This document shows, piece after piece, positions 1-45,123 of a DNA stretch of 64,000 bases (position 1 is the first letter of the stretch; each line of letters begins with the position of its first letter). Both the position numbers and the translations under genes were made by a program. Source of the DNA: Polaromonas vacuolata (lineage in GTDB: Bacteria > Pseudomonadota > Gammaproteobacteria > Burkholderiales > Burkholderiaceae_C). The DNA lies in assembly GCF_012584515.1 (NCBI RefSeq), contig NZ_CP051461.1, positions 1,410,001 through 1,474,000 of the forward strand. Direction: 5' to 3'. The notes beneath the pieces were generated by a model that saw only the letters and a program-made list of their open reading frames with translations, had not been told where the DNA came from and searched no databases.

Positions 1-663
1 GGCAGCGGGGCAGAGTCTGGCGCGCAGCTACAGTTTCACACTGCCCGATGGCTTGCGTGGTGTGGGCACTTGGGATATTAAGGTCGGCGCTGACCACTAC
101 AACAACATATTTGAAAACAACAATGCCGGCACGGCCGAGAGCAATAACACCGCGCAGCTAAGCGTAGTTTCGACCTCGAGAACATACCCCGATCTACAAG
201 TACAAAACCTAGCCGTAGACCAAAGCCTCATCCAATCAGGTGACAGCATCACCATTCGCTGGAATGACTTCAACAGCGGCAATGCTGCGGTAAAAAGCTA
301 TTACTACGATCGCGTCTATCTGCGCAACACCACGACCAACGAAACCTTGTTGAACACGTATGTTTATGCCGGTGAAGTCCCAATAGAAGCGGGACAGAGT
401 CAGGCGTACAGCTACAGCTTCACACTACCCGATGGTTTGCGTGGTGTGGGCACTTGGGATATTCAGGTCGGCGCTGACCCAAGCTTCTACATATTTGAAA
501 GCAACAATGCCGGCACGGCCGAGAGCAACAATACCGCGCAGTTAAGCGTAGTTTCGACCTTGAGGACATACCCCGATCTGCAAGTGCAGAACCTAGCCGT
601 AGACCAAAGCAGCGTGAATGTCGGCGACAGCATCACTATTCGATGGGACGACTTCAACAGCGG
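1..663 (+). repeat. 384-bp direct repeat within the CARDB region
   Basis: Two near-identical copies with an exact 384-bp offset can be followed: TTGCGTGGTGTGGGCAC at 53 and 437, AGCCGTAGACCAAAGC at 211 and 595, and GACAGCATCAC at about 242 and 626. The unit is 128 codons, one CARDB domain, so gain or loss keeps the frame. The array continues out of the window on the left. Confidence 0.85.
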
Positions 664-3600
664 TAACGGTTTGGTGGCCGGTGCGTTTTACGATTTGATT
701 GTTATTAAAAACAAAACTTCCGGTGAGCAGCTCAGCAAGACTACCGTCTACTATGACCCCGCGCTTTCGGGTAACGGCGCGATCAGCCCGGGACAGTTGC
801 TAGCGCGTTCATTTGTTTACCGATTACCGGACGGCACACGCGGCGCGGGTGAGATTGAAGTGACGGTGACAACCGATCAAAACCTCAATGCGCAAGGCAG
901 TGTGTTTGAAGCGAACCAGAGCAACACCGCCGAGATCAATAACTCAAGCATTGTTCAGCTTCAGTCCGCCCTCAAACCGTATGCAGACTTGCGTACTAGC
1001 GCACTGAATGTTCCGGCCAATGCCGCCTCAGGTAGCAATATTGAAGTTAGCTGGACGGTCGAGAATCTGGGGCCAGTTTCCACCGGTACAGGTTGGACAG
1101 ACCGCATCGTGCTGTCCAAAGACGGCGTCATCGGCAATGCGGATGATGTGGTCTTGGCCAACGTGCAGCGCAGCGGCGCATTAGGCGCTGGAGGCATTTA
1201 CACGCAGACTGCAAACCTACGCATGCCAATGCGGATTGACGGGTCCTACCGCATTGCCGTGATCGCCGATGCGACCAATTCAATATTGGAGCCCGACTCC
1301 CGATCCAATAACACCGGCATTTCCAGCGCGATTTCCATTCTTTCTACCAATGCAGATCTGGTTCCGGAAATCACGCTAGTGCCAGTCATTGCCAACGCAG
1401 GTCGCAGTGCGCGTATCGAATGGAAGGTCACCAATCGGGGAACAATTGCAACCGACGTCAGTTCCTGGGTAGACAGGGTCTACCTGTCAACCACGCCGGC
1501 CTTGGATATCAATGCAGTCAGCGTAATTTCTTTGACGCATACCGGTGCACTTGAAATTGGCGCCAGCTATAACGCAGCAGTCGATGCCATCTTGCCAGCT
1601 ACAGTAACTGGCGCGCGATACCTGATCGTTAAAACCGACGTGACTGGCAAAGTCTATGAACTCGGCAGTGCTACCAATAACAATATGATCGCTGCGGCGC
1701 AGACAACGCAGATTTTTCCCGAGCCCAAAGCCAATTTGCAAATCACAGATCTGCAAGTGCCGACTACTTGGAAAGTTGGTGATACGGTCAGCATGAGTTA
1801 CTCCGTGCAGAACAACGGCAACGAGATTGTCAGCACCACCCTGACAGACAGCATTCGTCTGGTCGATGTCAATAATTCTGCCAACGTGATGAGTCTTAAA
1901 ACTGTGCAGCAAAACCGTCTGCTTGGAGTGGGTGCTGCTTACTCACAAACGCTTAGCTTTGAGGCGCCTGCCGTTGCTACAGGCACTTGGCGGCTAGAGG
2001 TCATCACAGATTCACTCAATACCTCGAATGAACTCAACGAGACCGACAACACAAGAACTCAGCTGGTCAACGTCATTCACCCAGACCTACGGGTTGACGC
2101 CCTGAATGTTCAAGGCTTGCGCCAGGGCGGCGAAGCACTCAACGTGAGTTGGGTCACCAGCAACATCGGTTCTGCCGACGCAGCCGGCGTGAAAGATACC
2201 GTGTATTTGTCACGTGACGGTGAACTTGGTTTGAATGACATCAAGCTCGGTGAATTCACCCACGCAACGATTTCAATTGGCGGTAGTTTCTTGGCGAGTA
2301 TTGCAGTCACGTTGCCAATTGATGCCGCAGGTGCTTATCAGCTTTTGGTTGTAACAGACGCCGACAACCAGCTCAAAGAAACAGCGGCCGGAGAAATTAA
2401 TAATCAAACACTAGCACTGATAAACGTTGCGCAGGACTACTACGCCGATCTGGCCATTAGCGATGTGTCAGCGCCCACCCGCGTGATCGACGATCCTGCG
2501 CCTTTAGAGGTGCTCTGGACCGTCACCAACCAAGGAACTGGCGCGGGCCGCACCAGCAGTTGGATTGACCGCGTAGTGCTTTCTAGCGACGACATTTTAG
2601 GCAATGCGGACGACCGCATAGTGGGTGAATACCGCCACGACGGCGCGCTGGCACAAGCTGCTTCTTACAGCCGCAGCGAACGCATGTTGCTGCCTGCGGC
2701 CAGCGTGGGCCGCTACCAGCTGTTTGTTGTGACGGATGCGCGTGCCGAGGTGTTTGAGAAAGGCTCAGAAGCCAACAACATTGGCCGCATCAACCATGCT
2801 GTCGATGTCATGACCATCCCCTATGCTGATCTGCAAGTTGAGTCGGTCAGCACCAGTGGCACGCCAGCCAGTGGACGTCCGCTGCGTGTGACTTGGAGCG
2901 TGGTCAATACTGGCATTGGATTGACCAATGTTGCCGAATGGTCAGACAGCGTTTGGCTCAGTCGCAACGCCGACGGGTCTGGCGTCGTCAAGTCATTTGG
3001 CACAGCAAGCCACATCGGCCAGCTTGCGGTGAACGACCGTTACAGCCGCAGCCTTGAAGTGACTTTGCCCGAAGGCATAGAGGGCACCTTCTACATCAAT
3101 GTGCGCACCGGTGGTTCGTTTGAGTTTGTGTTTGACAACAACAACCAAGCCAGCTCTGGCGCCATTCCCGTGCTGCTGTCCCAATCACCGGACCTGAAAG
3201 TAGAGAGCATCACCTTGCCGACTACCGCGCTTGAGGGCGCGGTGATTGACGTGAGTTGGAGCGTAGTCAACCTTGGCCCAGCCAGCGCCGGTGGCGTGTG
3301 GACCGATACCGTGCAACTGGTCTCTGGGGGGGGCGGCGCTGCCGTGACCCTAGGTAGCTTTAGCTACGACCGTGGCCTAGAGTCCGGCATTCGCTACACG
3401 CGCACTGAACAGCTGCGCTTGCCGGCAAAAATTGAAGGTCTGTACCGCATCAAAGTCACCACCAATTCAGCGGGTCAGTTATATGAATACGGCGCTGCGG
3501 CTGGCAACAACGCGTTTGATTCGACAGACTTGACCGAAGTCAGTTTGAACGATCGCCCCGATCTGCGCGTTGGCACTATGACCGTGCCAGAGCATGTCAC

Positions 3601-6600
3601 GGCTGGCACCAGTGCTTCCATTCGCTACAGCGTGATAAACCAAGGGCCTGCAGCAGCCAGCGGCCGTTGGAAAGACAAGGTTTTCTTATCTCTAGACGCT
3701 ACCCTCAGTGGTGACGACTTGCTGGTGGGCCAATTTGACAACGCGAGTGCGCTCGCGCCGACCGAGGCTTATGCCAGCACCAGCGCAGCGGTGGATATTC
3801 CGATTCGCTACCGTGGTAATGCCTACCTAATAGTGGTGGCCGACGGCAACAACAACATTGATGAATACCCTAGCGAAGGCAACAACATCAAAGCGGTGCA
3901 GTTCTATGTAGACCCGATACCCTTTGGCGACTTGGTCACCAGCGACATCGTTGCGCCGGAGCAAGCTGTGCATGGCGCGAGTATTGAAGTGCGCTACAAG
4001 GTCAGTAACTTGGGCAGTGACACGACCCGTGGCGTCTCGGCTGCTATCAGTAGCTGGACCGACACGGTTTGGCTGGCACGCGACAAACGACGTCCGGGTG
4101 CTTATAAGGGCGATGTGATCATCGGCTCCATCACCCACAACGGCAACTTGGCCGTCGGTGCCGACTACCTAGGCACGGCGCAAGTCACGATTCCAGACAA
4201 CAGCTACTCGGGCAACTACTTCATTACAGTTTGGAGCGACGCCTACGACGTGATTTTGGAGGACACACTAGCGTCCAACATCAACCTAGACGATGCCAAC
4301 CAGCTGGACAACAACAACTACAAGTCACGTGCAATCAGCGTGATTGGCATTACGCCGCCTGCATTTGATTTGACGGTCATAGACGTTACTGCGCCAGTGG
4401 CTGCCGACGCCGGGGGTAATTACACGTTTAGCTACAGCGTGCAAAACAAGGGCGACGCGTTCAGCGGCTACTGGGATGACTTGGTTTACCTGACAGAGAA
4501 TGCCGACCCGAATTCAGAGCAAAACGTGTACTTCTTAGGCAGCTACAACCAGCAGCGCACTATTGGCAGTGGTGAACGCTACACCGTGACCCAAACCGTG
4601 CAACTCGCACCGTCTGTGAAGGGCCGACAAATTGTCGTCAAAACCGACGTTCCCAATCGCATCGGTGAGACCAACGAATCCAACAATCTGCGTGCGGCGG
4701 GCTCGGTCATTGCCTCACACCCGGCAGACTTGCAAGTGACTTCGCTAGAGACTCAGCTAGATAATTTTTCTGGCGAAGACAGCACCATCACCTGGACGGT
4801 CACCAACCAAGGCGAGGCTGTGTGGCCAGGCTCCCGAGACTGGGCCGATGTCGTTTATTTCAGCAAAGACCCCAGCTTTATTCCGAGCAGAGCTAGCCTC
4901 TTGGGAAGCTTTGTTCACTCCAATGTGGCGGGGCTGGCAGCCAACGCCAGCTACACCACCTCAGCGAAAATTAAACTGCCGCCTGGCACCGAGGGTGCTT
5001 ACTACCTCTACGTCATCACCGACGCAGTGCGCAGCCCTTTGTATTCGAGCCAATTCCGGTCTGAAACAGAGTATTTGGCTGGTGGCTACAACCCAAACTT
5101 GCGTGACTACAGCTACGCAAGCTCGGTTTTTGAAGGTGGACGCAACGATAACAATATGGCGGGCGCTGCACTCAACATCACCTACCGCGAACCCGATTTG
5201 CAGATAGACAGCATCAGCGTGTCCGATCCCGCGCCGTATTCGGGCCAGCAAATTAGCGTCAGCTGGACCGTCACCAACCGCGGCAGCCGCGACACCCGCA
5301 GCAGCAATTGGTTTGATGGCGTGTACTTGTCGCGTGATGATTCTCTAGACGGCAGCGACACCCCACTGGTTGATCGTGGCAATAATGCGGAAACCTACTA
5401 CCGTATTGCCTCAACAGTGCTGCTTGACGCCAATCAGCCCAAGTACTTAAAGCCGGGTCAGTCTTACACCAATACCGCCACCTTCAACCTGCCCGAATCC
5501 ATCAGCGGGAACTTCAACCTTATTGTTAAAGCTGACACCTCGGTCACCAAAGACTTCTACCCAAGAGAGCCCAGTACCATTCGCGACGGCCTGAGTACGA
5601 TCGCAGAAGGGTTCATTTTTGATGCCGTCAAAGAGTTCAAAGACGAAGGCAATAACGTCGCCTTTATCGCGCTACCCATCACCTTAGGCACGCCGCCAGA
5701 CTTGCAAGTGGCACAAGTTACTGCGCCCGCCAGCGTGCTGGCCGGGCAATCTGTCAGCATCAGTTACCGGGTTGTGAACGCGGGCGGCAACACCACCAGC
5801 GATCAAGGCAACTGGAACGACTTGGTCTACCTATCTAAAGACCGATTCTTAGACGTTAACCAAGACCGCTATGTGGGCTATGTAGGCCACGGCGGCGGTT
5901 TGGCAGCCGGCGCTACCTATGAGCGCAGCCTTAGCATTACTGCGCCGCGCGACCTAGAGGGTGCGTACTACGTCTTCGTCATCACCGACCCGGCGCGCAC
6001 CTGGGGCACGGGCGCTTTTGGCAGTGTGCGTGAGTTTGGCAAAGAGCAAAACAACGCCAGTGCTGCAGAGCAGCCCATCATCGTCAACACACCGCCCCCA
6101 GCCGATCTGAAAGTCACCAGCGTTGCAGTGCCTAGTTCAGGCATCGTGGGTGAAGCGGTGCAGATTAACTACAGCATCACTAACGATTCCATCAACCCAG
6201 CTTATGGACGTTGGACTGATGCGCTCTATCTTTCTAGCGACAACGCGTGGGACTTGGGCGACATCTTGCTAGGCAAGCTAGACCACGTGGGCGACTTGGG
6301 TGCGCAAGCTAGCTACAGCGGCTCGCTCACCGCCAAACTGCCGCCACTGAAAGACGGTAGCTGGCGCATCATCGTGCGGCCCGATCTGTACAACGAAGTC
6401 TTTGAAGGCAGGATTAGCTACACCGCCACTGGCTTGAACTTACCACCGGGCGAAGCCAATAACCGAGTGGCCTCTGGCGGCGTGCTTCAAGTACAAGTGC
6501 CCACGCTCACTGTGGCCAGCCCCTTGAACACCACGCTCGCAGCCGGGCAAACACGCCTTTATAAAGTCAGCGTCGCCAGCAGTGAGACACTGCGCGTGAC

Positions 6601-9600
6601 CTTGGATTCGTCCGCCGAAGAAGGGGCTAACGAGGTCTACATCCGCTACGGCGACATTCCAACCGGTTTTGCCTTTGATGCCGCTTATAGCAACCCGTCG
6701 GCTGCCGATCAAGAAGCACTCATACCAAGTACCCATGCGGGTGACTATTACATCTTGCTGCGCGCTAGACAAACCAATCAAAGCAACGACATCCCGGTCA
6801 CCCTGCGTGCCGATCTGCTGCCGCTAGCCATCACCAAGATCACGCCTGACCAAGGCGGCACAGGGGACGATAACCACCGTTGGGTGACTTTTGATATTGA
6901 CGGCGCCAGCTTTAAAGCTGGCGCGCTGGTCAAACTCTCACGCCCTGGGGTGTTTGAGATAGAGCCTGCGCGTTGGCAAGTGCTTGACGCCACGCACATC
7001 CGCGCGGTGTTTGATTTGCGCTTCGCCCCCCGCGGTCTGTACGACCTAATTGTCACCAACCCAGACGGCAAACGCGTGACTGAAGTCAACCGCTACTTGG
7101 TAGAGCGCGGCATTGAGGCTGACATCACCATCGGCATAGGTGGCCCACGCTCGCTCAACCCGGGCGACAGCGCACTTTACAGCGTGTCCTTGCAAAGCTT
7201 GACCAATGTCGACACGCCTTACGTGCGCTTTGATATTGGTGCTACCGAAATGGGTGACAGCGACGACGTGCTGGACGGCTTGAACCTTCCTTATGTCTTG
7301 TTTGGCTCAAACGTAGGTGGCGCGCCCGATGGCAAAACTGCCGACTCTGCTGGCAACACCCAAACCTACGGCGCAACACCCACGGCCGGACTTAGCCGGG
7401 CCGACATCCCTTGGGCACGCTTAGACGGTACGGTCAACGCCACTGGCATGAACTTAGCACCTGGTTACGCCTTTGATGTGGCCGCCGGTGGCTTCATCGG
7501 CATGAGCTTTAATTTGCAAACCTACCCGGGCTTAAAAGAATGGCTTGGTTACGATTTTGAAGGTCTTCGCGATAAGCTTTACGCCAGTCACCCCGACTGG
7601 AAGGCCAGCGGTTTGCTCGATGCTGGAGTCTCCTCGCTGGACAACATAGAGGCAGGCTTAACTGCCAAGTTTCTGCATGTCGATTCGGGCGACGACCGTG
7701 TCCACTACACCAAGCTGGAAGAGTTGGCCACGCCTTTTCGTTTTAATCTGACAGGTGCCGCAACGCCTTTGACGCGTGACGAATTCGTCGCCGATCAAAC
7801 CGCACACGCCAAACAACTGCGCAGCGCCATATTGGCGGACAACAGCGCTCCATCTAGTTTGGCGGTGTTGGCGGCTGATGAGCAGCAGTGGGTCAAGGGC
7901 TGGCTCGGTGCCTTAGAAGCGGCAGGCTTGCTGCGCCCCTTGACTGAGGCGCCGCCGATTCGCAACCAGCCCGAAGTGCTGAGCTTAAACGCCACGCTGG
8001 CCACCGGCATCTTGCTGGCCAAGGGCGGTGACAGCTACCGCACGCAGGCCGACTTGCTAGGCTTTTTTGCCAAAGTTCAGCAGTGGTATGGCGACACCGC
8101 CAAGTTTTCTAGCGACCCACAAGCCGCTAAAGCAGCAATTGAATATCAAGAGTACCGCAAGGATGGGGACGGCAACGAGGTCTATATTCCCGTGCCCTTT
8201 ATGGCCGACCCGGCCGCGTTTGACCAACAGGCCGCGCAAGACACCCACTTTATTAACTTCAACGTTTTTGCCGGTGGCCGCACCGAGCTAGAGTATTTGC
8301 GCCACATCGGCGTGCTTGACGCCGAATTCAATCCGGTGGCCGGCAAAACGCTCAATCTCACGCAATACCTGCAGCAAGCCGCACAAAAGTCTGCCGACGC
8401 ACAGGCGCTGATTAGCGTCACCGGCCCACTAGGCACAGCTACTGCGGCAGATGGCAGCAACTATGTGCCGGCAAACACACCCTTGCCCTATACCTTGTCA
8501 ATTAACAATCCGACCAACCATGCGGTGAGTCAGGTTCGCATAGTGACCGAGCTGGACGCAGACTTGGACGCACGTTCCCTGCGTTTGGGCGACCTCAAGT
8601 TAGGCGATATCAATATCCACGTACCGGCCGATAAAGCCGTCTTTCAAGGCGACTTTGACTTCACCGGCAGCAAGGGCTACATCTTGCGCGTAAGCGCTGG
8701 CATTGACGTAGCCAGCCGCACCGCCACTTGGCTGTTGCAAGCCATAGACCCCGACACCGGTGAAACCATGCGTGACAACAGCCGTGGTTTGTTAGCCCCT
8801 GCCGCAGACCCGAGCAAGCCCAACGCCGACAGCTTAAAGCGTGGCTTTGTCAGCTACAGCGTGCGTGCCGTGGACGGTGCGCTTAGCAACGCCAATATCA
8901 GTACTCAAGCGCGCGTGTTTCTGGGTGACGCACCGCCAGCGGACAGTGCTGTCAGTGCTTGTACCCTAGACGTCCATGCACCGGTGACCACCACCACAGT
9001 CAGCGCCTTGGGCAAAAACGCCCAAGGTGCGCCCGCCTACGACGTGAAGTGGAGCGCCACTGAAGACGCCAGCGGCGTTAAGTCCTATACCGTATACGTG
9101 GCCACAGACGGTGGCGATTTCAAAATTTGGCAGCGTCAAATTGCCCCTTCGCGTATCCAAGCCGTGTACAACGGCGAAGCCGGCAAAACCTACGAATTCT
9201 TGGCTGTCGCAGTGGATAACGCCGGCAACCGTGAAGCCGCATCGGTAGCCAACGCCGTGTTGCCCGATGACGGTACCCAACAAGCCGTTCTAGACGCATT
9301 AGGCGTCACAGACGGGCTGACTCAAACGCAAGAAATTCCATTCGCCGCACTGGGGCGTAGTTACGCCTCTAACGACTTGTTTGAGCAATCTACCCATAGA
9401 CTACCGGGCTCGGTAGCCCCGGCCCAACCGGGTGATCTTCAAACCGTGCTGGCACCGTTTTCGCTGCGTGGTTTGGCCGACGGCTTTGCCCAGAGCGATG
9501 GCGACGTGGGCGCGCTCGCTATGGTGGAACTGGTCGATCACTCCTTTTTGCTCAGCGCAGGCAAACTGCGTAACGAAGTATTCCAATACAGCAAAGACGG

Positions 9601-27828: not shown

Positions 27829-29780
27829 GTGTGCGCGTGGTCGCCGCAGCTGCGCATGGCACGCTTAGCAGCAACACGGATGGTTCGCTCAACTACACAC
27901 CTGATGCCGGCTTTGTCGGGGTTGACAGCTTTAGCTATGTGGCCAATGACGGCCAAGCCGACTCCAATCTGGCCAGCGTGAGCGTCACCGTCACTGCCAG
28001 CAACCACCCACCGGTGGCTGTGGACGATAGCGCCAGCTTGAATGAGGACGGCAGTATCACGCTAACTTTGCTGGCCAACGACAGCGACGCCGATGGCGAT
28101 GCCTTGACACTCACGCTGCAAAGCCAACCCGCCCACGGCACTTTGCTGAAGAACGCTGTCGGCCAATACATCTACACACCGGTGGCTAATTGGAGTGGTG
28201 AGGACCGCTTTACTTACGCGCTGTTTGACGGCAAAGCCTGGTCCAACTTGACCACAGTGCGTCTGCTGGTCAGCGCCGTGGCCGACGCACCCCGGTTGGT
28301 TCTGACCGACATAGCTGCAAGCCCTCATGAACTGTTCCGAACCGGTTGGGAAAGCGTTGCCAATCAAAACACCAGCTCCAGCCTGCTGCAGCAGCGCACT
28401 TTGGAGGGCTGGACCTTGGTCACCTCGCTGGACAACAGCGCTTGTGCCAACAACGGTTTTGAGATCTGGAGTAGCGGTGACAAGATGGCGGACGCTAGCA
28501 ACAAGCTACGCACGGTCAATGCCGCCAGCAATAACGGCAATAGCGGCAATAACTGGATGGAGCTCAACAACGCCAGTGGCAACATGCCTCAGACCCTAGG
28601 GATTGAACGCAGCCTCAGCACGCTGGCTGGCGCCCGCTACACGCTGAGTTTGGATGCAGCCGGTCGCATGGGCTACAGCGCAGACTACACCCGCATCGGC
28701 ATTTATGTGGACGGTCAGCGCATAGGCGGCTGGGACGGCACCAGCGGTTCAGCGGCTTTGAACTGGCAGACATTGAGTTTTCAGTTTGTCGGCAAGGGCG
28801 GCCAGCAAACTATTCGGATTGCCACAGAAGCCAGCAAGTTAGACCCTAACGGCCGCGGCATGATGATTGACAATATCGCGCTGAACGAAGCCTTGGGCGC
28901 CAATACTGGCCTAGAAGATCAAGCGATTCGTCTGTCCAACATCAGCGCCGCGCTGAGCGATACGGACGGCTCAGAAATACTCTCTGTCAGCTTAGAAGCC
29001 CTGCCTATAGGCGCTACCCTAAGCGACGGCACACGCAGTTTTACCGCCAGGTCTGGCAACACCACAGCGGATATCAGCGGCTGGAATATGGCTTGCCTGA
29101 GCCTGCTGCCGCCAGCTGACTTCAACGGCACACTCAATTTACGCGTGGTGGCAACGGCGAGTGAAAAGGTCGGTGGCAGTCGCAGCAGCACCAGCGCCTC
29201 ATTGGTGGTGACGGTGCTGGCGGTAAACGATGCACCGCGGGTGTTGAATGCAAGTTATCAGTTGCTAAAAGACGGCACGGTGAGAATTGACTTCAGCGCT
29301 TTGATTCGCGACGTGGACGGCGACGCCCTAAGTTTGAGTTTCACCAGACCCGCCCATGGCACCCTTACGCGTAATTCGGATGCCAGCTACACCTATAGAC
29401 CAAACCGAAACTACATTGGCAGCGATGCTTTCAACTACACCATTAGCGATGGTCAACTCGCTAGCAGCGGCGCGATTTCTTTGTCTGTTGGACAAGCGAG
29501 CGTGGCAATTGCGGTAGTGGGTGCGGCACCGCTACAAGACAGCTGCGCCAGCATTGTGCTGCGCTCTAACTACGCCCTTGCGGCGAATTCAGGCTCGGCT
29601 AACGCCAACGCCAACGCAAACCCGCAAGGCAGCAGTAGCCAGTTTGTCGATTGGTCTAGCAACGCCGTGCCCATCAGCACACTGGGCAATCTCGCTTGGG
29701 TAAGAGACTTTTTGGGCGCTACACAGGACCAACGCAGCCTAGCGGAGAGGACGGGACTGAGTGTTAGGGCTAGCTTGTGA
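27801..29780 (+). CDS. Giant surface protein, C-terminal segment
   Basis: This is the C-terminal continuation of the giant protein in a third frame. Homologous sequence starts at about 27780, slightly before the first ATG. It has two or three tandem-95/cadherin-like domains (27830-28300), a DUF642-like galactose-binding-type domain (28330-28890) ending in MMIDNIALNE, two further cadherin-like domains (28900-29500), and a C-terminal tail containing FVDWSSNAV and WVRDFL. A conserved tail at the extreme C terminus is where type I-type substrates carry their export signal, so this tail is the best candidate for one; that is inference. The TGA stop overlaps the GTG start of the next gene by 4 bases. 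Confidence 0.8.
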   Translation: MPKSANAGLSVRVVAAAAHGTLSSNTDGSLNYTPDAGFVGVDSFSYVANDGQADSNLASVSVTVTASNHPPVAVDDSASLNEDGSITLTLLANDSDADGDALTLTLQSQPAHGTLLKNAVGQYIYTPVANWSGEDRFTYALFDGKAWSNLTTVRLLVSAVADAPRLVLTDIAASPHELFRTGWESVANQNTSSSLLQQRTLEGWTLVTSLDNSACANNGFEIWSSGDKMADASNKLRTVNAASNNGNSGNNWMELNNASGNMPQTLGIERSLSTLAGARYTLSLDAAGRMGYSADYTRIGIYVDGQRIGGWDGTSGSAALNWQTLSFQFVGKGGQQTIRIATEASKLDPNGRGMMIDNIALNEALGANTGLEDQAIRLSNISAALSDTDGSEILSVSLEALPIGATLSDGTRSFTARSGNTTADISGWNMACLSLLPPADFNGTLNLRVVATASEKVGGSRSSTSASLVVTVLAVNDAPRVLNASYQLLKDGTVRIDFSALIRDVDGDALSLSFTRPAHGTLTRNSDASYTYRPNRNYIGSDAFNYTISDGQLASSGAISLSVGQASVAIAVVGAAPLQDSCASIVLRSNYALAANSGSANANANANPQGSSSQFVDWSSNAVPISTLGNLAWVRDFLGATQDQRSLAERTGLSVRASL

Positions 29781-29809
29781 GAGTCGCTGGCCTGGGCGCT
29801 AGCCCTAAC
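29763..29809 (+). promoter_or_regulatory. 12-bp perfect inverted repeat spanning the giant-gene stop and the next start
   Basis: GTTAGGGCTAGC at 29763-29774 is the exact reverse complement of 29798-29809. The 23-base loop contains the TGA of the giant gene and the GTG start of the GAF-HlyD gene. There is no T tract, so it is not a usual terminator. In mRNA it would present the coupled stop/start in a loop and might tune translation of the export genes relative to the giant protein. Confidence 0.6.
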
Positions 29810-31693
29810 CCTAACGCCACCGCCGCAACACAGACACCCGGGCAAAGTAGCGGCGAGCCAGCCGGCGTGAGCGCTGAGGTTTCACCTTGGGAAAGCTTTG
29901 TACTGGCAAAAAGTTCGGACGAGTTTTGCCGCGCTTGGCTGGCGCTGATATGCACTCAAATTGTGGGCGTTTGCGCCGCTGCGGTTTTGGTCGAGGATGG
30001 GCTAGCGCAGCGCTTTGTGCCGCTCGCAGCTTGGCCCGAAACTGCACCCGACATGGCTCGCTTGAGCGCAGTCGTGCAGCGGGCGTTGACCGAGAAGCGC
30101 GGCATTGTGCAGCCCGAGGTTAAGGACGCCGTGCGCTCCACGCATATTGCTTACCCCGTGTTGATGGGGTCCCGGGTGGGGGCTGTGGTGGCGCTGGATA
30201 TGAGCGGCCTTGATGAGGACGTGCAACTTGCCTTGCGGCATATTCATTGGGCCAGTGCTTGGTTAACGAATATGTTTTCTCAGCGCGAATTAGATCTGGC
30301 TACCCAAGGTCAGGAACGTCTGGGGTCAGTGCTGGAGATCGTGGTCTCAGCCTTACGCCATGCCAAGTTTCAGCAGGCCTTGTTTGAAGTCGCCAACCAG
30401 TTGCGCCAGCGTTTTAAAGCCTCGCGCGTAGCCATTGGCTTGGCCGAGCATGCGCTGGTCAAGGTCACGGCGCTCTCAGAAGCCGCCACTTTTGAGCGCC
30501 ACAGTCCCATGGTCAAAGCCTATAGCCGCGCAATGGATGAGGCGTTTGATCACGGTGCGCCGCTGTCTGCCAGCGCGCTAATTCGCACTCCGACAGAGGC
30601 TACTTCGCAGCAAGCCGCGTCGCCGCAGCATCACGCTTTGCTGGCTTGCTCGGGCGCTAGCCATGTGCTGTCTTATCCTTTGCTATTGGGCGCGCGCTGC
30701 CTCGGCGTGTTGCTCATTGAGCAGGACGGTGACGGTTTTACGGCCGCTGACATGATTTGGTTAGATGCTTTTGCGGCGCTGCTCACGCCCATCATTGCGC
30801 AGCGCAAAGCGGCAGAGGCCGGCGTGCTCGCCCGTCTGTCGGCGCAAAGTCAAAGCCTACTAGAAAAACTATTTGGCCCACGGCATCTGGTGTGGAAAGC
30901 TTCGGCTAGTTTGATGCTGCTGATATTTTCCCTGCTGCTACTGGTATCGCTGCCCTATCGGGTCACCGCTAAAACCGTGATCGAAGGCGAAGTTCAGCGC
31001 GTCAGCGCAGCGCCATTTGAGGGCTTTATTGCGGCCAGTTTTGTGCGCGCGGGCGACAGCGTCAAAACCGGGCAGTTGCTCGCCCAACTAGACGATCGCG
31101 ATCTCAAAATCGAGCAACTGCGCTGGGCCAGCGAAGGTGAGCAGTACGACAACAAACTGCGCGAAGCCATGGCCAACGGAGATATGACTGGCGTGCAAGT
31201 CATAGGCGCTCAGCTCAGGCAATCACAGGCGCAACTCGCGCTGGTATCCGCAAAAATAGAGCGTGCGCAGTTGATAGCGCCTTACGCTGGCTTGGTGGTG
31301 TCGGGCGATCTGAGTCAGCAAATCGGCGCGCCGGTTGAGACCGGGAAAAAACTCTTTGAAATCGCACCATTGCAGCGTTACCGAATTATTTTGCAGGTCG
31401 ATGAGCGCGAGATTCGGCATGTCAGCGTGGGCCAAGTGGGGCAGATTGTGATGACCGGTATTGCCAGCGATGCTATGCCCTTGAGCGTACTCAAGGTGAC
31501 CCCGGTAGCCAGCGCGCAAGACGGTAAAAACTTTTTTCGCGTCGAGGCAAGTCTGGACCGTGTGCCTGACCATTTGCGGCCTGGCATGGAGGGCGTGGGC
31601 AAAATTGAAGTCGGTAGCCGACGCCTGTGGTGGATCTTGACGCACTCATTGACCGACTGGTTGAGTTTGTCTTTGTGGACTTGGATGCTGTAG
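29777..31693 (+). CDS. GAF-GAF-TM-HlyD fusion adaptor of the putative giant-protein exporter
   Basis: The 638-residue protein begins at GTG in a 4-base overlap with the giant gene, implying coupled translation. Residues ~40-180 and ~195-350 resemble GAF-type sensory domains. A transmembrane helix follows at ~374-392 (ASLMLLIFSLLLLVSLPYR), then a HlyD-like periplasmic part with a lipoyl half-motif (APFEGFIAASFVRAGDSV), a short coiled hairpin and a beta barrel. HlyD-type adaptors bridge an inner-membrane pump to TolC. A cytoplasmic GAF sensory module on such an adaptor is unusual and suggests ligand- or redox-gated export; no ligand is indicated. Start choice rests on the overlap; no strong Shine-Dalgarno sequence lies close by. 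Confidence 0.8.
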   Translation: MRVAGLGASPNPNATAATQTPGQSSGEPAGVSAEVSPWESFVLAKSSDEFCRAWLALICTQIVGVCAAAVLVEDGLAQRFVPLAAWPETAPDMARLSAVVQRALTEKRGIVQPEVKDAVRSTHIAYPVLMGSRVGAVVALDMSGLDEDVQLALRHIHWASAWLTNMFSQRELDLATQGQERLGSVLEIVVSALRHAKFQQALFEVANQLRQRFKASRVAIGLAEHALVKVTALSEAATFERHSPMVKAYSRAMDEAFDHGAPLSASALIRTPTEATSQQAASPQHHALLACSGASHVLSYPLLLGARCLGVLLIEQDGDGFTAADMIWLDAFAALLTPIIAQRKAAEAGVLARLSAQSQSLLEKLFGPRHLVWKASASLMLLIFSLLLLVSLPYRVTAKTVIEGEVQRVSAAPFEGFIAASFVRAGDSVKTGQLLAQLDDRDLKIEQLRWASEGEQYDNKLREAMANGDMTGVQVIGAQLRQSQAQLALVSAKIERAQLIAPYAGLVVSGDLSQQIGAPVETGKKLFEIAPLQRYRIILQVDEREIRHVSVGQVGQIVMTGIASDAMPLSVLKVTPVASAQDGKNFFRVEASLDRVPDHLRPGMEGVGKIEVGSRRLWWILTHSLTDWLSLSLWTWML

Positions 31694-31697
31694 TTTT

Positions 31698-33851
31698 ATG
31701 CAGCGCAGCATTTTTAGCCAATCTTGGTTTAGCGTTGCCGATTTAAAGCCACGATTAATCCCGCAAGCACGGATTAATCGCCATGTTTACCGCCAGCAAG
31801 TGTGGTTTGTGGTGCAGGATTTGTCAGGCGGGCGCTTTCACCGTTTGTCACCAGGCGCCCACGCGTTGGTGATGAAAATGGATGGGACGCAAACGCTACA
31901 AACTTTGTGGGAGCAGGCAAACCAATCCGCCAGTGCTGATCTGTGCACCCAAAATGAAATCGTCGAATTGCTGGTGCAACTGCATGCGGCGAACTTGCTG
32001 CAAGCCGATTCCACGCCAGACTCGGCAGCTTTGTTTGAGCGCTTTAAGCGTCAGCGCCAGCAAAAGTTCAAGCAATGGCTTTTTAATCCCATGAGTTTGA
32101 AACTGCCTTTGCTAGACCCAGACGGCTTTCTCAACCGCTGTATGCCGCAACTGGCTTGGTGCTTTGGCTGGTCTGGCTTGCTGCTGTGGTTGGCCGTGGT
32201 GTTGCCGGCGCTGGTTTGCGCCGGCCAAAACTGGGGCGAGTTGACGCTCAACCTTTCTGACCGCGTCCTGTCGGCAAGCAACTTGTTGGTGATTGCCTTG
32301 GTCTATCCAGTGGTCAAAACTTTGCATGAATTGGGCCACGCTTTTGCGACCAAGCATTGGGGCGGTGCGGTGCATGAAATGGGTTTGATGTTTCTCGTCT
32401 TCGCGCCGGTTCCCTATGTCGACGCGTCGTCGTCGTCCTCTTTTTCTTCTAAATATCAACGCGCAGTAGTGGCCGCCGCCGGTATGTTGGTAGAGCTGTT
32501 TGTCGCCTCTTTAGCCATGTATGTCTGGTTGCTAACTGAGCCTGGCGTGGTGCGCGCAATTGCTTTTAATGTGATGTTGATTGCCGGAGTGTCGACTTTG
32601 GTGGTGAACGGCAATCCGCTGCTGCGCTACGACGCTTATTACATTCTCACCGACTTAGTCGAGCTGCCAAACTTGGCCCAGCGTGGGCCTAAGTACCTGA
32701 CTTATCTGTGGGATAAATACCTGTTTGGCGTGCATGATTCAGAGACTGCGCCACCGACCGAATCCGCCGCCGAGCGGCGTTTGTTGCTGCTCTACACGCC
32801 ATTGGCTTGGTGCTACCGGACCTTTGTCACGCTATCGATTACTTTGTTTATCGCGGGCGAATTTTTCATCATTGGCATTGTGCTGGCTTTATGGGGCGCT
32901 TTTACGCTGGTTGGTATGCCTTTGTGGAAGGCTTACCAACATGTGGCGACCAGTCCTTTGCTGCAACGCCGGCGCGCCCAGGCGGTGAAAGTCTCGCTGC
33001 TGTTAATGCTGGCTTTGCTGTTGTTTGGCTTTACGTTTCCCATGCCTTTGCACACCCGTGCACAGGGCGTGGTGTGGCTGCCGGACGAATCGATTTTGCA
33101 TGCCCAGGGCAGTGGCTTTTTCTTGCCTTGGATGCAAACACCGGGGGCCGAGGTCAAGCGCGGCACGGCACTGTATTTGCTAGAGGACGCGTTACTTGCG
33201 AGCGAGTTGGAAGTCAGTCGTGCCAAGCTTGCCGAGCTGCAAGCTAAATACCGCGCCGAACAGTTCACCAATACTGCCAAGGCGGCACTGAGCTTTTCGC
33301 AGCTTGAACAGGAGCGTAAAGTTTTGCTGCGAATAGAAGATCGCGCCAGCAAAATGCTAGGCCGCGCACAAGTCGCTGGCACGCTGGTGGCCAGCAAAGC
33401 GCAGGACATGCCAGGCCAGTATTACAAAAAAGGCGATTTGCTCGGCTATGTGTTGGATACCAAAGAGTTGATGGTGCGTGTGGTGGTGCAGCAAGACGAT
33501 ATTGATTTGGTGCGCAACCATTGGCGCTCAGCGCATTTGCGCTTGGCCCGACGGGTTGAACAAATCCACGAGGCCACACTTGTGCGCGAGGTCTCGGGCA
33601 GTGTCGATGAGTTACCTAGCCCCGCGCTTGGTTTGTCCGGTGGTGGCTTGATTCCCACTTCGCCGAATGATCCGAATGGCATCAAGACCATAGGCCGCGT
33701 ATTTTTAATTGATTTGAAATTGCCACCCGACACATTGCCACCCGCTTTTGGTGAACGCGTGCACGTGCGTTTTGAACATGGTTTTGAGCCGCCTGCGATT
33801 CAGGGTTTACGCCGCTTGCGGCAATTGTTCTTGAGTCGTTTTGGTGTCTGA
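31698..33851 (+). CDS. PqqD-like / M50 site-2-type protease / HlyD fusion membrane protein
   Basis: The 717-residue protein starts 4 bases after the previous stop. Residues ~30-110 resemble a PqqD-like peptide-binding fold ([20 protein letters not shown]). Several membrane helices follow, with an M50 zinc motif HELGH at residues 210-214 and a downstream [12 protein letters not shown] segment equivalent to the family's third zinc ligand region. A helix near 430-450 leads into a HlyD-like lipoyl/barrel part (about 470-700). Proteins with this layout (M50 plus HlyD) are known beside peptide and protein exporters. It probably forms part of the membrane pump and may process its substrate. Whether the protease is active cannot be judged beyond the intact motif. 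Confidence 0.8.
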
Positions 33852-34482
33852 CATACGAGCGCTGATTGCCAATCGCCGTCTTGAGGTGAGTGATGGCGCC
33901 TACCATGAGCGCGCTGTGACAGCGCCCGCACCGCTGGAAGAATGGCTGCGCGCTTGGGCTGCGTGTTTATCCGTGACTGGGCGCGGTAATAAACGCAGCA
34001 AAGCATTTTTAAAGCACAGCAACTCGCTCGAAGCTAATTTACGCAGCAGCGATGATTTGACCTTGCGACAAGGTTTGAAAGCGGTGGCCAAGCAAATGCA
34101 ACAACAAGGCTTTTGTGATGCCTTGCTAGCGCAAGCCTTTGCAATTGTGCGGGAAGCTTCGCGCCGCGTGCTGGGAATGCGCCACCATGATGTGCAGTTG
34201 CTAGCGGCCTACGTACTGCTGCAAGGCAAGATTGCAGAGATGGCGACAGGTGAGGGTAAAACCTTGGCCGCCACGCTCGCGGTGTGCACGGCTGCTGCAT
34301 GCGGCGCGGCAGTGCATGTGGTGACGGTGAATGATTATCTCGCCCAGCGTGACGCTGAAAAAATACCCTACTTTTCAAATATTTTTCCTTCACTCTTGGG
34401 GTGGTTAAACAAGATATGTCGCTCGAAGAGCGGCGCTCGCAATACGCTTGCGACATTGTTTATGTGTCGAATAAAGAGCTGA
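33844..34482 (+). CDS. SecA-like ATPase, N-terminal fragment (frameshifted)
   Basis: This starts at GTG 33844 (TTG 33841 is possible), overlapping the M50 gene by 8 bases. It contains the SecA Walker A region [10 protein letters not shown] (residues ~132-141) and [11 protein letters not shown]. After that it loses homology and stops. The homologous continuation is one frame back. Adding one A to the A6 run at 34358-34363 gives [19 protein letters not shown], which aligns without gaps to the canonical SecA segment after [11 protein letters not shown]. The last ~40 residues of this fragment are therefore probably not native. It belongs with the next entry. Confidence 0.8.
34358..34363 (+). repeat. 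A6 tract at the SecA-like frame break
   Basis: Six A bases (GCTGAAAAAATAC). A seventh A would restore one frame across 33844-35837. Loss of one base from a homopolymer is the simplest explanation; a sequencing error is an alternative. Confidence 0.6.
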
Positions 34483-35837
34483 CTTTTGATTACCTAAAAG
34501 ACCGAATTGCGCTGGGCGCTACGCTGCAAACACATCAAAAATTGCGCCAGCTCTACCGTCCCGGTGCGCAAGTCGTCACGCTTTTACGCGGCTTACATGT
34601 GGCGATTGTGGATGAGGCGGACAGCGTTTTAATTGACGAGGCCAGAACACCGTTAATCATCTCTGAAACCTTGGCGGATGATTTAGATGAGCAGGTTTAT
34701 GCGCAAGGCATTGTGATCGCCCAAAGCCTGGTCGCAATTGAAGACTATGTGATCAGCCAGCACCGGGATATTTGGCTGTCGCCAGCTGGCCTTGCGCGAA
34801 TTAGCGCTGCGGCCTCTAGCTTGGCCAGTGTTTGGAGCTCCTTGCTGTGGCAAAAAGAATTGCTACAAAAAGCGCTGATGGCACTGCATCTATTTCATCT
34901 CAATGAGCACTACATAGTGCTTGAAAACAAGGTTCAGATAGTCGATGAATTCACCGGCCGTGTGATGCAAGACCGTACATGGGAGCGTGGACTGCATCAG
35001 ATGATTGAGGCAAAAGAAGGTTGTGAAATTACCGGCCAGCGCAAAACCTTGCAGCAAATTACCTATCAACGGTTTTTCTCTCGTTATCTGCTTTTAGCCG
35101 GAATGACCGGAACGGCCAAAGAGGTGGAGCCGGAAATAAAACGCGTGTACGACCTGTCCGCAGTTCGTATTCCCACCCACAAACCGAACCAGCGCTTGCG
35201 ACTGGCCGATCAAGTGTTTGCCAGCACACAAGAGCGCTGGCAGGCGATCGCCTTGCAGGCGACTGAGCTGGCTGCGCAAGGTCGATCTGTATTGGTTGGT
35301 ACGCGCTCGGTAGAGGCCTCGGAAACGCTAGGGCGGCTTTTGCAGGCATTTAGCGTGCCGCACACCGTGCTCAATGCAAAGCAAGATAAAGCCGAATCAG
35401 AGGCAGTTGAAATGGCCGGGCAGCCGGGGCAGATAACGGTTGCAACCAATATGGCCGGACGCGGCACAGACATCAAACTGTCGGAAAAAGTCAAAGCCAA
35501 TGGCGGCCTGCATGTGATATTGACAGAGTTTCACGAAAGCGCGCGCGTCGACCGTCAGCTGTTTGGTCGGGCCGCACGCCAAGGCGACCCGGGTACGACA
35601 AAAGCCATCGTGTGTTTGCAAGATGAGTTGTTCCGGTTGCACGCACCAGTTTTGAGTCGTTTGCTGGCCCAGTGGTGTGTTGACTCTAGGCCTTTGGGCC
35701 GCGCCGTTTTCAGGCTTTTGGTGACGCTGGCGCAATTTAAAGCCGAGAGACGCAATCGGCAGATTCGACTCGCTACCATCAAGCGCGATCGTCAGTGGCA
35801 AACCTCTTTGGGATTTATTGGTAGCCATAAAAAGTGA
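34401..35837 (+). CDS. SecA-like ATPase, C-terminal fragment (frameshifted)
   Basis: This carries SecA hallmarks in order: [15 protein letters not shown], Walker B/DEAD-like [19 protein letters not shown] (~69-87), [46 protein letters not shown] and [10 protein letters not shown]. It ends soon after the second ATPase fold. A full-length helical wing and the C-terminal zinc-binding tail of housekeeping SecA are absent. Joined with the N fragment it would be about 664 residues, against 830-930 for ordinary SecA. It is a dedicated paralog, not the essential secA, and is the only recognisable energy-coupling protein in the export cluster. If the frame break is real, no complete ATPase is made unless expression involves slippage. 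Confidence 0.85.
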
Positions 35838-35902
35838 TGCGCGTTTTTTTATAGCAGTAATCGTGTTTGCAATTAAGGCGTCAATTTTTCTCGCATTTTT
35901 CC

Positions 35903-35940
35903 GAATTAATTTTGAATTAATTTGGAATTAATTTGGAATA
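35903..35940. repeat. 11-bp tandem repeat over the tolC stop codon
   Basis: GAATTAATTT(T/G) occurs three times in a row (35903, 35914, 35925) with a partial fourth copy. The third copy supplies the tolC TAA stop on the minus strand. Eleven is not a multiple of three, so copy-number change would alter only the last residues of TolC. Confidence 0.8.
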
Positions 35941-37316
35941 AACCAAGGCTCCAACGCCGTCAAATCAGTGTCTGTGAGTTCCCCTTGCGTAGATTTAAGT
36001 TTTAAATAATTCGTGATCATGTCGTAACGAGATTTTTGCAAATCTTTCAGTGCATTGGACAATTGTTGTTGGGCCTGCAATACATCAAGCTCGGTCTTTA
36101 CACCCGACGTCTTGCCCTTGCGTGCCGCTTGCAGCGCCAGTGTTGTAAATTTATGCGACTGCAATGCAGCGGTTTGTCGCGCGAAACCGGCGTGCCATGC
36201 AAACCAAGCTTGTTTAAGGCTTAACTTAGTATTGCGTCTGGCGGCTTCAACATCGTGCATGGCTTTGTCGCGTAAAGCCTCAGCTTCCCCGACTTTTGCT
36301 TTTTGAGTGCCGCCGGAATAAAGCGGAATTGTCAGTTGCAGTCCAATAGTCCATTGACGAATTAAATAGCCGTTTTGACCCGGAAATGAACCGACATTTT
36401 GTGCATTGCGGGCGTAACTGGCAGTCGCTTCCAAGGTCGGTTCGTGGCCGGCTGATTGTTTGTTAACTTCTTCATTTGCCGCCTCTAAACCGTTGCTGGC
36501 GGCGAGTATTGCGGGGTGGTTTAAGTCGGCTTTTTCAAGCCATTGTTCCAAGCTTTGGCTGCGTGGGTCGGGTGCTGGGTAGTCTGTGCTAAAAGCCATA
36601 GGCGGGCTGGATGGGAGCCATCCTGTGATTTGTTCTAAAGCCGCAAGTTTGCTGCGCAGCTCATTTTCTGCGCTGCTCTGATCGGCCACAGCTTGGTCGT
36701 ATTTTGTGCGGGCTTCTTCCAAAACAGGAATTGACACAAGACCATTGCCCGCAGCTCGGCGGGCTTGCTCCCACTGATTTTTATTGGCATTTGTTTGCTG
36801 CAAACTAAATGCATTCACGTCTTGCGCATGCATAACGTCAAACCACGCAATAGCCAGGCGAAGGCGTAAATCCTGCTCAGCCAAAGCTAATTGAAAAGCT
36901 GCTTGCGCGGCTGCTGCGTTGGCTTGATTAACCGCCACACGACTAGCACTGTGCCAGACATGCTGGGTTAAATTTAATTGCCGGCTGTTGCTGCTATAGC
37001 TGTCGTCGGCAGAATCTGACGTGGCTTTTTTAGTTTCATAGTTGCGTTGGTTGGCGCCCTTGTTGATGGACGCGGATAGCTGCGGTAACAAAGCGCCAAA
37101 TACTTGCTTAGATCTTTCTAACGATGCAACGTATATGGCCTGTGCAGACAGAAATTGCGGATCAGTTTGACGGGCTAAACGCACACTTTCTTGTAGCGTC
37201 AATGAGTGTGCTGGCAGTGTTATTGTTATCGCGATAAAACAGATAACGCTGCGTACTACGCGATTAAAAAAAGGCAATTTTTGAGTTCTTGCCGTTAGAT
37301 TTTTAGGCGAATTCAT
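35928..37316 (-). CDS. tolC: TolC-family outer-membrane channel protein
   Basis: 462 residues, the usual length for TolC-type factors, with a signal peptide ending about ITLPAHS and then LTLQESVRLARQTDPQFLSA, typical of the family start. Two internally related halves are rich in alternating A/Q/L helices, with a conserved LTIPLYSGG strand motif before the second coiled region. TolC forms the outer-membrane trimer of type I and RND systems. It converges on the SecA-like gene and is divergent from a periplasmic adaptor gene, so it is the natural exit channel for the neighbouring exporter. No ABC or RND pump gene accompanies it. Confidence 0.88.
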   Translation of the reverse strand: MNSPKNLTARTQKLPFFNRVVRSVICFIAITITLPAHSLTLQESVRLARQTDPQFLSAQAIYVASLERSKQVFGALLPQLSASINKGANQRNYETKKATSDSADDSYSSNSRQLNLTQHVWHSASRVAVNQANAAAAQAAFQLALAEQDLRLRLAIAWFDVMHAQDVNAFSLQQTNANKNQWEQARRAAGNGLVSIPVLEEARTKYDQAVADQSSAENELRSKLAALEQITGWLPSSPPMAFSTDYPAPDPRSQSLEQWLEKADLNHPAILAASNGLEAANEEVNKQSAGHEPTLEATASYARNAQNVGSFPGQNGYLIRQWTIGLQLTIPLYSGGTQKAKVGEAEALRDKAMHDVEAARRNTKLSLKQAWFAWHAGFARQTAALQSHKFTTLALQAARKGKTSGVKTELDVLQAQQQLSNALKDLQKSRYDMITNYLKLKSTQGELTDTDLTALEPWFIPN

Positions 37317-37540
37317 AAATAAATAAAAAAGATAAGTGCAGTTCTGTCAAGGAAGGCTGCATTCGCGATGATCAATTTAGGTCGAAAATTTTGAGTATAT
37401 CTACGGCTTTTAATTTGGGATAAACGCACCAAGAAAAAAGGCGGATTGACTTTTATATTTTTCGAAAGTAATTTACTTATCTTAGAAAAATATTTTTAAT
37501 ACATCTCGTTATTTGATGCCATTTCATCCAACTTCACACC
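37317..37540. promoter_or_regulatory. A+T-rich divergent promoter region of tolC and adaptor gene
   Basis: The 224-bp spacer is markedly A+T rich and must hold promoters for both flanking divergent genes. No single -35/-10 pair or operator could be assigned with confidence. Confidence 0.4.
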
Positions 37541-38383
37541 ATGTCAATTAAATACGCACAAAGATTTTTTAGCCTTTTTTTTTATTTGCAATGTTCAAGC
37601 TTTGCTTATGCAGAAAATATTTTTGATTGCCTTATCGAACCCAGTCAAACTGTTGACGTCAGCAGTCCTGTCGTGGGTTTACTTGACAAGGTTTTAGTTA
37701 AACGCGGTGATTCTGTAATAAAGGGTCAAGTAGTCGCCAGTCTAGACTCGCACGCAGAAGTTGCCGCTACTGCGCTCGCGCTTTATAAATCAGAAATGCT
37801 TGCTCCCGTAGAAGCTGCGCAAACCAAGATTGAATTTTCAAATAAAAAATTTATTCGAAAGAGCGATATGCATGCCAATAATTTCATGTCAGAACAAGAA
37901 AAAGATGAGGCGCAATCAGAGCTTAATTTGGCACAAGCCGAGTTAAATTTAGCGCGTGAAAATAAGCAGTTGGCAAAATTAGAATGGCAGCAGCAAAGTA
38001 GCTTGCTTAAGCTGCGTACCTTAGTCAGTCCATTTAATGGTGTCGTGGTCGAACAACTGTTGTATCCGGGTGAAATCGTGGAGCCGAGTGGGCAAAAGAA
38101 AGTAATTCTCCGGCTTGCCAAACTCGATCCTCTGCGTGTGCGTGTGATTTTGCCTATGCGGATATTTGGAAACATCAACTCCAGCACGCAAGTTGAGGTG
38201 AGTCCTGAGCTGCCAATTGGTGGCCATTACGCGGGTCGCGTTAAAGTGGTTGACCGTCTTGTCGATGCAGCTAGCGCTACATTCAGCGTGTATTTGGAAA
38301 TTCCGAATCCAAAATTAGACATTTCTGTTGGCGTGAAATGTCGTGCGCAGTTTTTAAGTACGGTGGATTTACCAAGAAAATAG
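37541..38383 (+). CDS. Small periplasmic adaptor (membrane fusion) protein
   Basis: 280 residues with a signal peptide (about 1-24, ending SFAYA), a split lipoyl-like motif (VVGLLDKVLVKRGDSVIKGQ and LVSPFNGVVVEQLLYPGE), a coiled hairpin between them rich in E/A/L/N, and a beta-barrel part. It lacks a membrane anchor and is shorter than usual RND or HlyD adaptors. It is divergent from tolC, so it probably works with TolC and the export cluster, giving three adaptor-like proteins in total. The cognate pump cannot be assigned. Its A+T content is higher than in the mfd side of the window. Confidence 0.8.
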   Translation: MSIKYAQRFFSLFFYLQCSSFAYAENIFDCLIEPSQTVDVSSPVVGLLDKVLVKRGDSVIKGQVVASLDSHAEVAATALALYKSEMLAPVEAAQTKIEFSNKKFIRKSDMHANNFMSEQEKDEAQSELNLAQAELNLARENKQLAKLEWQQQSSLLKLRTLVSPFNGVVVEQLLYPGEIVEPSGQKKVILRLAKLDPLRVRVILPMRIFGNINSSTQVEVSPELPIGGHYAGRVKVVDRLVDAASATFSVYLEIPNPKLDISVGVKCRAQFLSTVDLPRK

Positions 38384-44972: not shown

Positions 44973-45087
44973 AAATGAATAATACCTACCGTATGAACTC
45001 AGGGATTAACATGAAGATTTAACGATGTACATCATGTTGCATAGTTGCAAAGTACTATTCTTAATAAAATCTGCGAGTAGCTACATA

Positions 45088-45104
45088 ACTCACCAGCGGT
45101 GAGT
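45088..45104 (-). other. Small stem-loop between ompR-like and envZ-like genes
   Basis: ACTCACC and GGTGAGT form 7-bp arms around AGC, within the 151-bp gap. It may attenuate read-through from the regulator into the kinase; no T run supports full termination. Confidence 0.35.
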
Positions 45105-45123
45105 CTCTTGCATGTGTTCGCCT

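Follow-up and report, generated by a model that had tools for sequence, protein, structure and literature searches.

How does a giant surface protein leave the cell when the genes that accompany its own encode adaptors and an outer-membrane channel and no recognizable pump? This question is raised by a locus of Polaromonas vacuolata, whose 3.84-Mb genome is a single contig and in which we analysed a stretch of 64,000 nucleotides (positions 1,410,001-1,474,000, hereafter the window). The left 38 kb of the window hold the giant gene, genes for an adaptor with GAF-like domains (GAF-HlyD), for an adaptor fused to an M50 protease (M50-HlyD) and for a short paralogue of SecA, and genes for a TolC-family channel and a third adaptor. 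Family and profile matches of the window's proteins gave no ATP-binding cassette (ABC) or RND pump among these operon genes, and a preliminary description of this DNA was right that adaptors and an outer channel are present without one. The module recurs at 80 loci, and giant proteins with an N-terminal LEPR-XLL sequence track M50-HlyD across a phylum sample. For these reasons we consider it probable that the module is a dedicated, ABC-less exporter of LEPR-XLL giant proteins.

Among the 299 genomes of the phylum sample, 73 carry M50-HlyD and 70 a match to the LEPR-XLL model (NF012209) above 17 bits, with 59 genomes common to both sets; scoring for M50-HlyD was confined to the three top candidates of each genome, as it was for the ABC protein LssB considered below. 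Long LEPR frames (at least 17 bits in a frame of at least 800 residues) are found in 54 genomes, 53 of which have M50-HlyD, and only one of the 226 genomes lacking M50-HlyD has such a frame (Fisher test, p = 7.6e-41). This single genome (G313) shows no LEPR-like leader on reading and is therefore probably a false match, which we still counted as LEPR-positive. The Fisher tests treat genomes as independent; collapsing the sample by genus, which lessens the effect of kinship and does not fully remove it, gives long LEPR frames in 34 of 43 genera with M50-HlyD and in none of 138 without (p = 8e-29). The sample contains 75 long LEPR frames, of which 27 exceed 5,000 residues and the longest reaches 19,427.

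The pairing was also followed in other sets. Ten of 61 relatives have LEPR above the cut-off; nine of these belong to the 13 relatives in which M50-HlyD was matched, and the tenth (G038) has a short frame. The class sample of 232 genomes includes 18 with the branch of M50-HlyD found in the window (branch A, see below), and 17 of these are LEPR-positive, the exception being G288. LEPR is above the cut-off in 32 genomes of this sample in total; four more have M50-HlyD of a second branch (branch B) and 11 have neither, most of these 11 being short frames. Of the 80 named branch-A genomes, 48 were searched for LEPR in a frame of any length and 46 were positive (the misses are L096 and L126), including records of Omnitrophota, Nitrospirota and Rokubacteria. 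A control set of 14 known genomes gave one LEPR-XLL match above the cut-off, in Deinobacterium chartae, which lies outside the sampled phylum.

The genes surrounding M50-HlyD recur with it. At the 80 named branch-A loci we found GAF-HlyD in 78, the short SecA in 75, a membrane fusion protein (MFP) adaptor in 59 and TolC in 10; where more than 2.5 kb of downstream DNA was present, the short SecA was found at 68 of 71 loci. The co-occurrence of GAF-HlyD, M50-HlyD and the short SecA, which the preliminary description had proposed as a check, is thus seen across the named loci. SecA is also present at 17 of 20 further branch-A loci and at none of 21 branch-B loci, where M50-HlyD is accompanied by HlyD (18 loci), a small adaptor (19) and TolC (14).

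The presumed cargo is larger than first thought. The giant gene starts 5 kb upstream of the window (G000:C1:1404962) and runs for 34.8 kb to its stop, about 11,600 codons, so that the single gene of about 9,900 residues described earlier has to be replaced by a longer one with an upstream start and three frames. In the window these frames lie on the forward strand at 2..17560 (CARDB and He_PIG/Big_9 repeats), 17335..27828 (a matrixin-like stretch and tandem-95/cadherin-like repeats) and 27801..29780 (the third frame with the C-terminus). The N-terminus is basic and reads LEPRVLLSAD from residue 62, where NF012209 matches with 28.8 bits (cut-off 17), and with 34.7 bits in the genome-wide search. 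Judged by eye, this leader is unlike a classical signal peptide in having an acidic residue within its hydrophobic stretch. In the 77 leaders typed by script, the distance between the most upstream start and LEPR does not exceed 100 residues (median 39), and a basic stretch precedes LEPR; leader positions 2 and 4 are constant partly because the search pattern fixes both.

We also looked for a common C-terminal secretion signal; long frames beside the module, compared at 22 C-terminal ends, share no sequence there. A few branch-A giants (L177, L325 and window 29600-29780) have [VI]DW followed by WxxDF at the C-terminus, a pattern that is not universal and might serve for anchoring or as a second motif for recognition; L177 and L325 additionally have RNPNAGLR there. 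Other features of the giant are a matrixin-like metalloprotease stretch in the second frame (P0002, residues 2103-2147), a run of short in-frame tandem NAT units near the N-terminus (L004, 11123-11176) and a duplicated segment, VAGPPQDGNGPLGGQRSVGA, at window 11780-11839 and 11852-11911. The region at 21931-22296 resembles what we take to be a glycoside hydrolase family 19 chitinase motif, with no Pfam match.

M50-HlyD (31698..33851, forward strand) is described by its domains as a PqqD-like N-terminal domain, a multi-transmembrane M50 core of the site-2 protease (S2P) type and an HlyD-like C-terminal half. The window's protein scores 22.7 bits with HlyD_3 (cut-off 22.2) and 23.0 bits with Peptidase_M50, below the Pfam cut-off of 27.2; the M50 assignment is settled by its HExxH site and by close homologues with precomputed PF02163 matches. 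The site consists of HELGH at 210-214 and a distal Asp at 312, and H210, E211, H214 and D312, the S2P/M50 ligand pattern, are invariant in 72 M50-HlyD sequences. The daptide M50 protease model NF041824 covers residues 26-395 with 128.7 bits, below its curated cut-off of 300. Of the earlier label "PqqD/M50-HlyD" the second part stands; PqqD gave no match in the window's own protein, although PF05402 is precomputed in some homologues and the predicted model has a beta3-alpha3 N-terminal domain whose secondary structure would fit a PqqD-like fold. PqqD-like domains bind leader peptides in the pathways of ribosomally synthesized and post-translationally modified peptides (RiPPs). AlphaFold2 models of module proteins have mean pLDDT of 86 and 90. 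Fold matches for the M50 membrane core were tried as well; the match lists were taken up by the adaptor half and we make no claim on the core. GAF-HlyD (29777..31693, forward strand) has two tandem GAF-like domains (about 35-350), a transmembrane helix (371-389) and a MacA/MexA-like adaptor (391-616).

We divided M50-HlyD into branches by profile score (alignment A1) and not by a tree, branch A lying over and branch B under 350 bits, with a gap from 373 to 323 bits. The 128 rows used, fragments included, comprise 43 of branch A and 85 of branch B, with LEPR on the same contig for 23 and 27 of them; the row of G443, with 79 bits and a match in the adaptor region only, was left out. The leaders were sorted by positions 8-10 into type S (LEPRxLLSA/G, some with LEDR or LEER) and type F (LEPRxxFDGA/LDAA). 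Within 20 kb of branch A, the phylum sample has 20 leaders of type S (four of them typed by eye), one LEPRVLLDGT (type F), one LEPRVLLNSD and one unread. Within 20 kb of branch B it has 26 of type F and none of type S. Three genomes (G296, G525 and G378) hold both branches, and in each of them either branch lies beside its own leader type. This match between branch and leader may go back to a single ancient split.

The short SecA of the window is encoded on the forward strand by two pieces that are out of frame with each other, 33841..34482 with part of the first nucleotide-binding domain (NBD1) and 34401..35837 with the rest of NBD1, PPXD and NBD2 (PF07517, PF01043 and PF21090 for the retained domains). 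The preliminary description was correct in placing a short SecA paralogue in the operon, although the gene is split here. Its relatives are mostly a single frame of about 662 residues; one of these, at 98 % identity with the second piece, has its 664 residues in one frame, so that intact copies of the short SecA do exist. The intact relative L059 aligns to Bacillus subtilis SecA over residues 84-601 of 665 and keeps the ATPase motifs. The wing-scaffold domain (SecA_SW) gave no match in the window's two pieces, nor in L059 and L069; the two-helix finger of SecA is placed in this helical wing/scaffold region. A strongly diverged SecA-like protein occupies the SecA slot at L109:12055-13845 and L131:11826-14078 (36 and 46 bits to SecA_DEAD), possibly without ATPase function. 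No second SecY was found in 25 genomes, 23 of which have one SecY, with zero detected in two drafts.

How widely a second SecA is distributed was determined genome-wide in two sets that we picked rather than drew at random, one of 40 genomes (25 branch A, 5 branch B only and 10 M50-negative) and one of 50 of the 73 M50-positive genomes (21 branch A and 29 branch B only). It is present in 35 of the 46 branch-A genomes (17 of 25 and 18 of 21), in none of the 34 with branch B only (5 and 29) and in none of the 10 M50-negative genomes. The branch-A genomes without it are G108, G141, G219, G225, G230, G244, G003 and G006 (several of them incomplete drafts), G443, G552 and G299; in G130 it lies on another contig.

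The operon genes are closely spaced in the window. The giant stop overlaps the GAF-HlyD start by 4 bp, a 4-bp gap separates GAF-HlyD from M50-HlyD, and M50-HlyD overlaps the SecA-like gene by 8-11 bp, varying with the SecA start chosen; the short overlaps and gaps reported earlier are confirmed. TolC (35928..37316, reverse strand; TIGR01844, 260.7 bits, cut-off 225) and the third adaptor (MFP3, 37541..38383, forward strand; RND_mfp/HlyD type, with a signal-peptide-like N-terminus by eye) adjoin the module as described, although TolC is on the opposite strand and divergent from the third adaptor. The module therefore contains both the HlyD-type adaptors and the TolC-type channel by which type I secretion is recognized. 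Three frame changes are found in the operon, near 17480-17520, 27775-27790 and 34385-34400. The one at 27775-27790 sits at a short tandem duplication and another of the three is in a GC-rich repeat; because of the switch near 17480-17520, the first 50 or so residues of the 17335..27828 open reading frame are not part of the protein. These changes may reflect errors of the assembly, damage in this strain or slippage. That this is a real locus is borne out by gene order, families and the lack of a pump, whereas a giant in a single frame, its stated length and an intact SecA are not. The genes to the right of the module are mfd, ispD and ispF, and 5 kb past it, at 43596-45861, lies a RisS-type sensor kinase and response regulator pair.

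Several observations weigh against a dedicated exporter of LEPR giants in which SecA is the engine. The giant and SecA genes of the P. vacuolata genome are each split between frames. Convincing LEPR leaders occur in G126 and G249 of the class sample with M50-HlyD undetected, and 14 of the 73 M50-positive genomes of the phylum sample have no LEPR match at 17 bits, 20 having no long-frame match. The agreement of branch and leader is broken by LEPRVLLDGT beside branch A in G497 and, outside the phylum sample, by a type S leader on contig C133 of G023 that has a branch-B-like M50 at a distance of 1.7 kb, and by the leader LEDRILLDAN in G219, whose M50-HlyD scores lowest among those of branch A in the class sample. 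Lacking the wing-scaffold, the short SecA is not expected to act with SecYEG in the textbook way. Since a second SecA is absent from 11 of 46 branch-A genomes and from every branch-B-only genome, SecA is not a universal motor; judged by gene content, it is a frequent branch-A component and not the core of the module. Of the earlier proposal of SecA-powered export, the part that names a dedicated ABC-less system for the giant is retained, and SecA as its defining engine only partly so, as LEPR giants persist without a second SecA.

Taken together, these results suggest that the core would be M50-HlyD, an adaptor-protease acting on LEPR-led giants, with SecA as a common supplement in branch A. 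We hypothesize that the cytosolic PqqD-like domain binds the leader and that the M50 core cuts it, gates entry of the chain, or does both. The adaptors and TolC would build a single tunnel spanning the envelope, the short SecA of branch A may feed the unfolded chain at the expense of ATP, and the tandem GAF domains may respond to a cytosolic ligand by switching the assembly. Branch B would work likewise with no second SecA, in which case the energy has to be supplied by the housekeeping Sec machinery, by the proton motive force or by extracellular folding. We tentatively extend this to a class of leader-guided exporters serving the largest proteins of bacteria, a possibility for which we would claim less: the PqqD-like domain would read LEPR as a RiPP enzyme reads its precursor, M50 would cut, and the chain would exit via the adaptors and TolC with no ABC pump involved, branch A often having a stripped-down SecA motor for LEPRxLLSA cargo and branch B handling LEPRxxFDGA cargo without an ATPase of its own.

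Another explanation for the export of the giant is a conventional type I system whose genes lie elsewhere in the genome, with the SecA, M50 and GAF genes regulating or processing the protein. Adaptors and TolC belong to type I systems, and P0002 exceeds the cut-off of the BapA/LapF adhesin model (NF045619, 210.6 bits, cut-off 180). We searched the loci for ABC proteins by the LSGGQ motif, which matched at L066 and L084, and with phmmer, a single LssB ABC protein being the query. An ABC-like frame is found at six of the 80 named branch-A loci, its distance from M50-HlyD exceeding 4 kb in every case; at L084 it lies 1.3 kb past the last adaptor on the same strand, and the others are 2.4-6.2 kb from the nearest module gene. 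None is found at the 20 further branch-A loci and two at the 21 branch-B loci (L319 and L174). An ABC exporter as an operon member was rejected on account of this rarity and distance, and the objection that homologous operons might always include one is not supported. Genome-wide, M50-positive genomes show a mild enrichment of the LssB-type ABC (odds ratio 3.2), and its odds ratio with long LEPR frames in the 299 genomes is 3.7, compared to 596 for M50-HlyD. However, 20 of the 53 genomes with M50-HlyD and a long LEPR frame, the window's genome included, have no LssB ABC above the cut-off, and a long LEPR frame is missing from all 65 genomes that are LssB-positive and M50-negative. Together with the lack of a common sequence among the 22 C-terminal ends, this makes a type I system encoded elsewhere quite unlikely.

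Alternatively, the housekeeping SecYEG and SecA may move the giant across the inner membrane, leaving the module a periplasmic and outer-membrane role only and the short SecA that of a regulator or targeting factor. The retention of LEPR giants in branch-B-only genomes devoid of a second SecA would be in keeping with this route, as would the single SecY and the missing wing-scaffold region. However, the leader, judged by eye, does not resemble a signal peptide of the classical kind, and both the PqqD-like domain and the catalytic core of M50 would be left without explanation, so we regard this route as unlikely. It is also conceivable that the module is an S2P-like system for regulated proteolysis or sensing, associated with the giant by mere genetic linkage. 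The conserved M50 active site and the tandem GAF domains would suit such a system; it gives the HlyD adaptors and TolC no role, however, and would not account for a leader type that tracks the M50-HlyD branch even within one genome. We consider it very improbable, and an exporter dedicated to the LEPR giants remains our preferred reading.

The layout itself has been known since 2015. In the part of their article available to us, Kamneva, Poudel and Ward (PMC4452313) describe a secondary SecA_DEAD protein without wing-scaffold in conserved loci with M50-HlyD, GAF-HlyD and HlyD, sometimes with an outer-membrane efflux protein (OEP) and with the ABC transporter absent. They propose there that SecA_DEAD is the ATPase replacing the ABC protein and the M50 protein a possible pore; the same part names no substrate. 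The module in the window answers to that description, its SecA_DEAD without wing-scaffold adjoining genes for M50-HlyD, GAF-HlyD and HlyD, so that the secretion layout suggested as distinct in the preliminary description is not new. New in the present analysis, relative to that part of the article, are the LEPR-XLL substrate class, its N-terminal leader and the sister branch that lacks SecA and has a leader type of its own, as well as the intact M50 active site and the tandem GAF domains. LEPR-XLL is mentioned in passing in the available portions of PMC10868602 and PMC9611531. A literature search that covered few subscription journals and no bioRxiv preprints gave no link between LEPR-XLL and the module, no export route for the family in print and no report of its secretion, leader binding or cleavage; term searches of the accessible text of PMC8277102 and PMC11573180 likewise gave no such link.

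Giant proteins are common in environmental bacteria. The near one-to-one pairing of LEPR and M50-HlyD offers a cargo for the 2015 module, a role for the LEPR-XLL domain and, for mutagenesis, a defined leader. The branch without SecA in turn poses the question of which force drives the export of a giant chain without a dedicated ATPase.

Compared to known systems, the module shares with type I secretion (HlyB/HlyD/TolC and the LapB/SiiE type) its HlyD-like adaptors, TolC and a giant repetitive adhesin-like cargo. It differs in being without an ABC transporter, in possessing three adaptors, of which one is joined to an M50 protease, and in a cargo that has its leader at the N-terminus and, over the 22 ends compared, no C-terminal signal in common. 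With SecA2 and accessory Sec systems it has in common a second SecA paralogue beside the presumed cargo gene; unlike them, its SecA lacks the wing-scaffold, no second SecY accompanies it in the 25 genomes, and a path through adaptors and TolC is present. A further comparison is with the M50 leader proteases of RiPPs, such as EpeP and the daptide M50 protease, which likewise combine a multi-transmembrane M50 core and HExxH with a short N-terminal cargo leader, and PqqD domains are found in some M50-HlyD homologues. The nearest precedent that we met for the proposed mechanism is EpeP, which is thought, in the text available to us, to cleave and export its epipeptide (PMC10885120). Here, in contrast, M50 is fused to an HlyD adaptor and the cargo has thousands of residues instead of being a peptide. 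As for the LEPR-XLL family, the N-terminus of the giant matches NF012209, a model that supplies only a name, and to this name the present analysis adds a likely exporter.

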